The notes under the pieces: model-generated
The model's database searches: none
What the model was told of the DNA's origin: nothing
Seen by the model: only the letters and a program-made list of their open reading frames with translations
In this document: in pieces, positions 54,308 to 55,368 of the stretch
Position numbering within the stretch: the first letter of the stretch is position 1
Layout of the letters: each line of letters opens with the position of its first letter
Made by a program: the position numbers and the translations under genes
Source of the DNA: Rhizobium etli CFN 42
GTDB lineage: Bacteria > Pseudomonadota > Alphaproteobacteria > Rhizobiales > Rhizobiaceae
Assembly: GCF_000092045.1 (NCBI RefSeq)
Contig: NC_007761.1
Span: forward strand, 4,039,501 to 4,103,500
DNA length: 64,000 nt
Direction: 5' to 3'

Positions 54308-54778
54308 TCACACTTCGTTTTCGCTCTCCAGCAGCCGCGGGCCCGGCCCTTCCTCGCCGAGCCGATCGAAGGGATTGCGCAACGGACAGCTTTCGATCGA
54401 CAGGCAGCCGCAGCCGATGCAGCCGGTCAGACGGTCTCGCAGCAGGCTCAGCCGTCTGATTCGCGTGTCGAGTTCATCCTTCCAGCGCGCCGACAGCGTC
54501 TGCCAGTCGGCAACCGTCGGCGTGCGTCCCTGCGGCAGGGAGGCAAATGCCGTCTGGATTTCCGAAAGCGGAATGCCGACACGTTGCGCCACCTTGACGA
54601 TGCCGAGCCGGCGAAGAACATCGCGTCCGTAGCGCCGCTGGTTGCCGCGCGTGCGGATACTCGAGATCAGCCCCTTGGCCTCATAGAAATGCAGCGCCGA
54701 GACGGCAAGACCACTGCGTTGCGCCACTTCGCCGACCGTCAGAAGCCTGCCGAGCGGCGTTGCGGAAATCCTATTCAT
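54308..54778 (-). CDS. soxR: Redox-sensitive transcriptional activator SoxR
   Basis: 156 residues. MerR-family HTH at the N-terminus ([20 protein letters not shown]), a dimerisation helix, and the [2Fe-2S] motif [12 protein letters not shown] (CxxCxCxxxxxC, residues ~123-134). It senses redox-cycling compounds by oxidation of the cluster. The SoxR box lies just upstream of its start, but the matched promoter points away from soxR. Confidence 0.95.
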
Positions 54779-54784
54779 CGCCTA

Positions 54785-54815
54785 TTGACCTCAATATTAG
54801 TTGAGGTTTTATAAC
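54785..54815 (+). promoter_or_regulatory. SoxR-dependent promoter with SoxR box
   Basis: CCTCAATATTAGTTGAGG (54789-54806) is a perfect 6-bp-arm dyad of the SoxR-box type (CCTCAA...TTGAGG). It sits between TTGACC (54785-54790) and TATAAC (54810-54815), spaced 19 bp, the long spacing typical of MerR-family activated promoters. The promoter faces right, away from soxR; a transcript would begin near 54822. Confidence 0.82.
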
Positions 54816-54821
54816 CCCTCC

Positions 54822-55030
54822 TCCCCGCGCCGTAAAGCGCGAGGCGCAGGAAGGAACGACGGTGAGATCATCCGGTCGATGCAAGCTGAATTGATGGCAT
54901 GGGCGCTTGCCCGCCCCGCACTGATCGCCCCTGCCGATATTGCCGCTTAAAAGCAAGCGCTCGGGTTCCGTTCCCGGCAGGTACGGAACCTCGGAAAACA
55001 CCCGGACAGGACCTCGTCCGGGTGTTTTTT
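54822..55030 (+). ncRNA. Candidate SoxR-controlled short transcript
   Basis: A SoxR-box promoter lies at its left end and a strong terminator at its right, giving about 208 nt. No ordinary gene fits. The best ORFs are a 10-codon GTG frame at 54862-54894 behind AGGAAGGA, whose TGA overlaps an ATG in the 23-codon frame 54879-54950 (MQAELMAWALARPALIAPAD and three more). It may be a regulatory RNA, a micropeptide mRNA, or the remnant of a lost SoxR target. Inferred from the boundaries only. Confidence 0.5.
54995..55030 (+). terminator. Strong intrinsic terminator
   Basis: AAAACACCCGGA (54995-55006) pairs perfectly with TCCGGGTGTTTT (55017-55028) across a 10-nt loop, and six T end the stem. It ends the putative SoxR-controlled transcript and separates it from the TPP riboswitch 65 bp on. 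The A-run on the left could also make it work on the minus strand. Confidence 0.9.
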
Positions 55031-55094
55031 CATCTGCGATCCCTTTGCAATTTTGCGGTTGCGGCAAGAAAACCCCGATGATAGTTTTCGCCGA

Positions 55095-55190
55095 AATAAC
55101 AGGGGAGCTCCGTGTCGCCGGGGCTGAGATGCGAGGCGCAGGCCTCCGAACCCTTCTAAGCTGATCTGGGTAATGCCAGCGGAGCGAGGT
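55095..55190 (+). promoter_or_regulatory. TPP riboswitch (THI element)
   Basis: The conserved blocks are in order: GGGGAGCTCC (from 55102), GGCTGAGATG (55122-55131), ACCC (55150-55153) and CTGATCTGGGTAATGCCAGC (55161-55180), then GGAGCGAGG. Binds thiamine pyrophosphate. The closing 3' strand of the aptamer contains the GGAGCGAGG ribosome site of the ORF that starts at 55195, so TPP would block translation initiation directly with no separate expression platform. Controls the ABC transporter downstream. Confidence 0.93.
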
Positions 55191-55194
55191 CCAA

Positions 55195-55368
55195 ATGTAT
55201 TTCGGCGCACAAGTGTCACTCTACTCGACGTCCGGCAATTCCGCCGGCATTCCTATCGATGCCGTCGAGGCAATCGCCCCCAATCGCGGCAGGCTGCGCA
55301 TCGAGATCGATGTCCTCGACAGGTTTGCGGGGACGGCCCGACGAATGCCTGAAATCGAACGCCGATGA
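55195..55368 (+). pseudogene. Truncated YkoF-like thiamine/HMP-binding protein remnant
   Basis: A 57-codon frame directly behind the riboswitch. It begins MYFGAQVSLYSTSGNSAGI and continues DAVEAIAPNRGRLRIEIDVLD, similar to the first ~40 residues of YkoF-family proteins that bind thiamine or hydroxymethylpyrimidine and are about 200 residues long, as I recall them. The rest is missing. Its stop overlaps the permease start (ATGA), so the stub still serves as a translated leader coupling the riboswitch to the permease. It could be a functional leader peptide now. Confidence 0.6.

Follow-up and report, generated by a model that had tools for sequence, protein, structure and literature searches.

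The window, a 64,000-nucleotide stretch of Rhizobium etli CFN 42 DNA, carries on its minus strand a gene that is certainly soxR (Table 1). Its product scores 224.6 bits against NCBIfam TIGR01950 (cut-off 116.9), matches the SoxR of PDB 2zhg with E=1.1e-60 and has the SoxR cysteine pattern. Divergently from this gene runs a promoter in which a perfect SoxR box, CCTCAATATTAGTTGAGG, lies between -35 and -10 elements separated by a 19-bp spacer. This arrangement, pointing away from soxR, had been proposed in an earlier sequence-only reading and is confirmed by the letters at 54785-54815; a perfect box, a 19-bp spacer and a position adjoining soxR are what a promoter of the SoxR regulon should show. 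The same reading placed a terminator with a 12-bp stem at 54995-55030. The terminator is there and folds as a 14-pair stem at about 54994-55029. Likewise, its statement that no normal gene lies in between stands: the plus-strand ORF at 54801-54950, which contains the 23 codons listed in Table 1, matches nothing in Pfam or NCBIfam at E 0.001, and a reductase gene found here in relatives is absent. The interval holds other small ORFs, including a minus-strand one of 98 codons; the profile search covered the ORF at 54801-54950.

Table 1. Features at the soxR locus, in window positions
Feature	Positions	Strand	Basis
soxR, redox-sensing MerR-family activator	54308..54778	-	TIGR01950, PDB 2zhg; divergent from the promoter-hairpin-terminator unit
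-35 element TTGACC	54785..54790	+	sequence; TTGACC in 29/29 reductase-less loci
SoxR box CCTCAATATTAGTTGAGG	54789..54806		perfect; promoter pattern in 103/148 genus genomes
-10 element TATAAC	54810..54815	+	19-bp spacer to -35
Predicted SoxR-dependent transcript, ~209 nt	54822..55030	+	start inferred 7 nt past the -10 element; contig positions 4094322-4094530
Remnant of deleted FMN-reductase gene	54848..54950	+	comparison and alignment with gene-bearing loci
23-codon ORF, not a conserved micropeptide	54879..54950	+	alignment with L029; ORF list of 29 reductase-less loci
Conserved RNA hairpin	54962..54993	+	covariation, core searches, covariance model
Intrinsic terminator	54994..55030	+	14-pair stem, U-tract in 3' arm
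TPP riboswitch	55091..55204		starts ~60 nt past the terminator

A simple promoter and terminator scanner listed neither element of the window, because its rules accept spacers of 16-18 bp only and want a T-run after the stem, whereas the U-tract here lies in the 3' arm. The sequence CCTCAANNNNNNTTGAGG occurs at only two places in the whole 6,530,228-base genome (7 contigs; reversed control 0). Apart from this box, the genome has just one perfect SoxR box (L113, G000:C2:3095769-3095786). It precedes a small protein that falls short of the threshold for the ABM monooxygenase family (PF03992, 22.3 bits against a cut-off of 23.1), and a MATE exporter lies nearby on the opposite strand. SoxR-regulated monooxygenases are known from other organisms (PMC4146615). 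A second SoxR-like protein, 49% identical, is encoded on another contig of the window genome (G000:C7:625893-626306).

The deleted reductase gene

A SoxR protein search returned at least 80 named loci, the 26 best of which (L029-L054) were compared with the window. Behind the promoter, 18 of these 26 (L035-L043, L046-L054) carry a gene of about 191 codons, which looks truncated in L042. Its product is an NADPH-dependent FMN reductase (the L038 protein scores 129.6 bits against PF03358), which often ends in Ala-Ala-stop. The gene is absent, as in the window, from six loci (L029-L034), namely those of R. esperanzae, R. phaseoli, Rhizobium sp. CCGE 510, R. hidalgonense, R. sophoriradicis and R. 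croatiense; R. tibeticum (L044) and R. cauense (L045) lack both the reductase and the hairpin described below. No PF03358 coding sequence is left in the window interval, and the best paralogue elsewhere in the window genome is only 38% identical.

Judged by alignment with gene-bearing loci, the window interval is the remnant of a deleted SoxR-target reductase gene, so that the sequence-only reading was right to name a decayed target among its alternatives. On the 5' side, the old ribosome-binding region AGGAAGGAACGACG is kept and the start codon is gone; on the 3' side, the codons GCC GAT ATT GCC GCT TAA (ADIAA stop) are those of the old C-terminus. The 23-codon ORF ends in this C-terminus because the window keeps the last codons of the gene. 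By BLAST against reference reductase loci, the window's own interval gave no match; matches to the C-terminal end came from the intervals of four clade mates, G116, G382, G445 and G090. Deletion breakpoints differ among reductase-less loci. In G100 an internal deletion, clean and apparently recent, has fused the initial 59 nt of leader and start to what is position 543 in the G098 reference; in G076, whose predicted RNA is 99 nt long, 40 nt are left between the -10 element and the hairpin core; and in G119 and G454 the start and stop of the old gene are kept in one frame.

Two minor elements were seen in these intervals. Reductase leaders of L046-L054 often contain GCTCC...CGTAAAG...GGAGC, possibly a hairpin that hides the ribosome-binding site, and CGTAAAG is kept in 26 of 29 reductase-less intervals. 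In some leguminosarum-type genomes (L036, L039, L176), the hairpin is set apart from the reductase end by an inserted palindromic element, ATAATCCTTTCCGAAAA...TTTTCGGGGTTAT.

The hairpin: structure and distribution

Between the remnant and the terminator lies a hairpin that the sequence-only reading had missed and that is the most conserved part of the predicted transcribed unit. Its 16-nt core, GTTCCCGGCAGGTACG (54970-54985), encloses a nearly invariant closed loop of 11 nt, U-Y-C-Y-G-G-C-A-G-G-U (UUCCCGGCAGGU in the window). The core pattern C-G-T-T-Y-C-Y-G-G-C-A-G-G-T-R-C-G, with complementary flanks and ahead of a terminator, follows the reductase gene in 18 of 18 named loci, and the six without that gene (L029-L034) have the pattern too. 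Folding of the window's 84-nt 3' module gives -42.5 kcal/mol, with a z-score of -5.56. The stability of the hairpin by itself is nothing out of the ordinary (z -1.57), and that of the full 214 nt is only modestly unusual (z -2.05).

Covariation was assessed in 83 distinct hairpin sequences from 110 loci, with identical rows merged and with G015 (core shifted by one), G003 (contig end) and G042 left out. Base pairing was found in 88.0% of 1162 cells, at most 49.4% with slid partners, and 136 cells had changes on both sides; neither value was reached in any of 500 shuffles, nor was the covariation score of 0.396 (0.202 in shuffles). Two other measures stand out less: 11 of 500 shuffles had at least as many pairs with a double change (10 of 14), and 40 of 500 at least as many further pair types (27). 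The four outermost pairs (columns 5-8) are unpaired in 11-37 of the 83 sequences. Since G-U cells on the plus strand number 131, against 28 A-C cells, which would be G-U on the other strand, an RNA read in the direction of the SoxR promoter is supported.

The second stem is found in 109 of 110 loci, the remaining one being cut by a contig end. The U-rich tail of the terminator is good in the window and weak in many genomes; by our own rule, 15 of the 29 reductase-less loci and 25 of the 80 others have a T-rich tail, and termination and Hfq binding are therefore uncertain in many species. Our own covariance model (R1) scores 54.6 bits at 54956-55000, with the window among its training sequences. 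An Rfam scan of the window gave no match at the gathering score; RF00106 RNAI (54935-55030, 27.1 bits, E 0.0031, gathering 47) was treated as a chance hit, and a weak match to HgcC, also below gathering, was discarded.

The distribution of the unit was followed in 148 genomes of the genus, one per species and unevenly sampled. Searched alone, the core gave 101 matches in 100 genomes (reversed control 6), and the SoxR promoter pattern was found in 103 (control 0). In all 110 genomes of the union, promoter and hairpin are both present and in the right order: in the 10 promoter-only genomes the core is shifted or carries one or two changes, and in the seven core-only genomes the promoter carries a change. 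G042, with one change in the box, also has both, which brings the count to 111 of 111 loci. This retention count covers loci that still have promoter or core; loci without both enter through the SoxR search only. Reductase sequence is present at 82 of these loci and absent from 29, as called by motif and length rather than by gene-by-gene intactness; G075, which the motif rule had scored as reductase-less, proved reductase-bearing when its sequence was read. The hairpin normally occurs once per genome, and a repeat element was rejected on the same counts (101 core matches in 100 genomes, the extra match, in G439, not being SoxR-linked). With six matches in the reversed control of 148 genomes, an occasional stray match of the core is expected.

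SoxR-like proteins (E 1e-20 or better) are encoded in at least 127 of the 148 genomes. Among the matches listed, nine genomes have an orthologous soxR (78-82% identity) and neither strict pattern; one is G042, and the other eight (L267-L274) have kept the SoxR box and lost the TTGA of the -35 element, the reductase and the hairpin. The ORF next door in these eight reads as atpC, and a larger deletion has apparently taken place there. They provide a useful contrast: the outward promoter decays where only the soxR side is left, but not where the hairpin is left. Four other genomes among the matches listed (G437, G113, G052 and G043) encode a SoxR of 59-60% identity and have a perfect box and TTGACC, with other -10 sequences, other genes and no hairpin.

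In 297 family genomes, the core pattern was found in 12 (reversed controls 4), of which four are SoxR-linked genus members and eight have no SoxR box in the fetched stretch. The covariance model found nine: the same four (53-56 bits) and five weak ones (24-32 bits, no SoxR box). By pattern or covariance model, no SoxR-linked hairpin was thus seen outside the genus in these 297 genomes. A hairpin motif scan of 54 non-core soxR loci was likewise negative, as was the covariance model in 16 of them; reductase motifs beside soxR were present in 11 of the 54, including Sinorhizobium, Ensifer and Chelativorans. Taken with the four perfect-box genomes, these reductases without a hairpin indicate that SoxR promoters as such need no hairpin.

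Three loci show changes in soxR itself. At G049:C29:162205-165500 (L247, L257, L280), soxR has gone and promoter and hairpin are kept, with a SoxR-like protein of 62% identity encoded on another contig. In G055:C6 the soxR match has an in-frame TAA, and in G432:C1 it covers residues 1-87 only; reductase and hairpin are present in both.

Interpretation and rival explanations

On a soxR tree of 108 genomes, 28 of them reductase-less (leaving out G049, which has no soxR at the locus, G441, with soxR below 300 nt, and G042), the reductase label changes state eight times (8-9 in bootstrap trees), and at least six changes are forced by well supported branches. Shuffled labels needed 25.0 changes on average, and none of 500 shuffles was as low. 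G050 stands alone among reductase-less genomes on the tropici side. The tree alone cannot tell loss from gain; loss is favoured because remnants of the reductase are seen and reductase motifs occur at 11 of the 54 other soxR loci.

What remains after the gene has gone is far from uniform in its rate of change. In the 29 reductase-less loci, where promoter and core are 69-294 nt apart and the predicted RNAs are 99-324 nt long, the 16-nt core has a mean pairwise difference per site of 0.017 and the 11 promoter-flank sites one of 0.0125, compared with 0.284 in the leader and, in soxR, 0.247 at third and 0.054 at first and second positions. For four reductase-less clades with 22 genomes in all, minimum-spanning and hence approximate counts give 0 changes in the core, where 24.3 would be expected at the rate of soxR third positions (P=2.7e-11), and 2 in the 13-nt promoter flank, where 19.8 would be. 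This constraint is not a search artefact, because the core-independent promoter search found all these genomes but G005. The sequence-only reading had counted poor conservation between box and terminator in close relatives against its proposal and had called for an alignment: the middle of the interval is indeed poorly kept, and the 23-codon frame with it, whereas the promoter and the hairpin structure are conserved.

The coding sequence was lost repeatedly, yet all 29 loci without it have retained promoter, hairpin and second stem, and the core has not drifted since; this is best explained by selection on the RNA. We consider it likely that the unit specifies a structured non-coding RNA that SoxR induces and that, once the 3' UTR of the reductase mRNA, is now free-standing. 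Redox-cycling stress would oxidise SoxR and so activate the promoter, and polymerase would then make a stable transcript of about 209 nt ending at the U-rich terminator. The functional part would be the 3' module, with its covarying hairpin and loop followed by the terminator. This module would have begun as the 3' UTR of an FMN-reductase mRNA under SoxR control, a place that it still holds in most of the Rhizobium genomes that have it; in the window lineage and several others, deletion of the coding sequence would have turned the promoter-hairpin-terminator unit into a free-standing small RNA. Of the alternatives that the sequence-only reading offered, a small RNA thus fits what is left, a conserved structured RNA unit presumably transcribed from this promoter (111 of 111 loci, covariation, core constraint).

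Such an RNA may act through its loop, the obvious contact site. Base-pairing in trans would be its most likely mode of action, with a protein as a possible alternative partner. Pairing with mRNAs is a usual role of such loops. A crude target search with the 12-nt complement of the loop in seven genomes gave 106 sites, which take in the opposite strand of the unit itself, and the reversed control gave 34; no candidate emerged from the 30 inspected, many of which lie inside long ORFs, with nothing conserved near starts and one ambiguous case.

It is unlikely that only a decayed target is present and that promoter, hairpin and terminator are leftovers not yet lost. Reductase remnants are certainly visible, and the clean deletion in G100 looks recent. 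In the window's own 13-genome clade, however, 59 of 125 soxR third positions vary and the 23-nt leader changes about as fast, with the core unchanged, and at least six independent changes have all spared the same parts; on the rates of core and third positions in reductase-less clades, pure debris is rejected. Quite unlikely, too, is a 3' module that serves only as an insulator or terminator shielding the downstream TPP-riboswitch operon from the SoxR promoter. The proximity of the riboswitch and the near-universal second stem would suit this. However, terminators do not need a nearly invariant loop, the conserved core belongs to the hairpin that precedes the terminator, conservation extends to the outward promoter, and the tropici-type and related loci L046-L054 have the hairpin with no TPP marker found in the 1800 nt read.

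The position of the hairpin after the reductase stop codon in named loci with the gene could point to a cis element of the reductase mRNA, acting on stability or translation, or to a site for a protein that only protects the 3' end, with no free-standing function; several leaders could also pair GCTCC with the ribosome-binding site. We regard this as very unlikely, the hairpin being nearly unchanged after the mRNA lost its coding sequence. That the short ORF encodes a redox-induced micropeptide, as the sequence-only reading also entertained, is barely credible. ORFs of 18-29 codons do end before the hairpin in G000, G092, G100, G116, G119 and G454, two of which (G119, G454) have the single-frame start and stop of the old gene. 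Yet both ATG and stop of the window frame are lost in R. esperanzae (L029), whose soxR is 97% identical, at nine of the 29 reductase-less loci the stretch from promoter to hairpin is free of ATG-started ORFs of at least 10 codons, and in some others the frames merely run through the hairpin. A micropeptide gene, with neither start, frame nor stop conserved, is accordingly rejected.

For the genus as a whole, we lean towards the broader reading that the selected product of the soxR-adjacent promoter is an RNA and not, or not only, an enzyme; the coding part of this RNA family would be dispensable and excised at least six times, with free-standing small RNA genes born repeatedly from one mRNA. 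Small RNAs derived from 3' UTRs are an established bacterial class, and the window shares with them a conserved structured 3' module ahead of a terminator that in relatives belongs to a stress-type mRNA; the difference is that in 29 genomes the coding part has gone and the same promoter would feed the RNA directly. To our knowledge, the known direct targets of SoxR are protein genes. The oxidoreductase and monooxygenase targets of the S. coelicolor regulon, as given in PMC4146615, resemble the window in having a SoxR box with a promoter and, ancestrally, an oxidoreductase product, but the window's product would not be a protein, and its 3' hairpin is absent, by motif, from the 54 non-core soxR loci. 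Pos19 of Rhodobacter sphaeroides, described in PMC5036791 as a redox-stress sRNA of 219 nt that depends on RpoE, is a stress-type RNA of similar length from another alphaproteobacterium; its regulator is RpoE rather than SoxR, and induction of the window RNA is predicted from its promoter.

No SoxR-driven RNA of Rhizobium is named in the titles and abstract openings of the open-access journal papers searched. The main text of the R. etli tiling-array paper (PMC2881028) does not contain soxR; its 89 ncRNAs are listed in supplements, and the unit's transcript may possibly have been detected among them. A term search of PMC4167512 gave no occurrence of soxR, superoxide or sRNA.

If the preferred reading of a free-standing SoxR-induced RNA holds, an RNA that outlives repeated loss of its ORF would add an RNA arm to the SoxR regulon. 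It would also provide a natural replicate series for small RNA genes arising from mRNAs, with the same promoter, the same hairpin, at least six independent changes and ORF-bearing sister species as controls. R. etli-type bean symbionts are genetically tractable, and nodulation involves redox stress.

Beyond the terminator, the TPP riboswitch is followed by an ABC transporter with an NMT1/THI5-like binding protein. Behind the riboswitch, at 55195-55368, the window has a 57-aa ORF with no Pfam match, and the corresponding place in L030 and L031 holds a 210-aa frame (PF07615 YKOF in L030); the short ORF is apparently a second decayed gene beside the unit.
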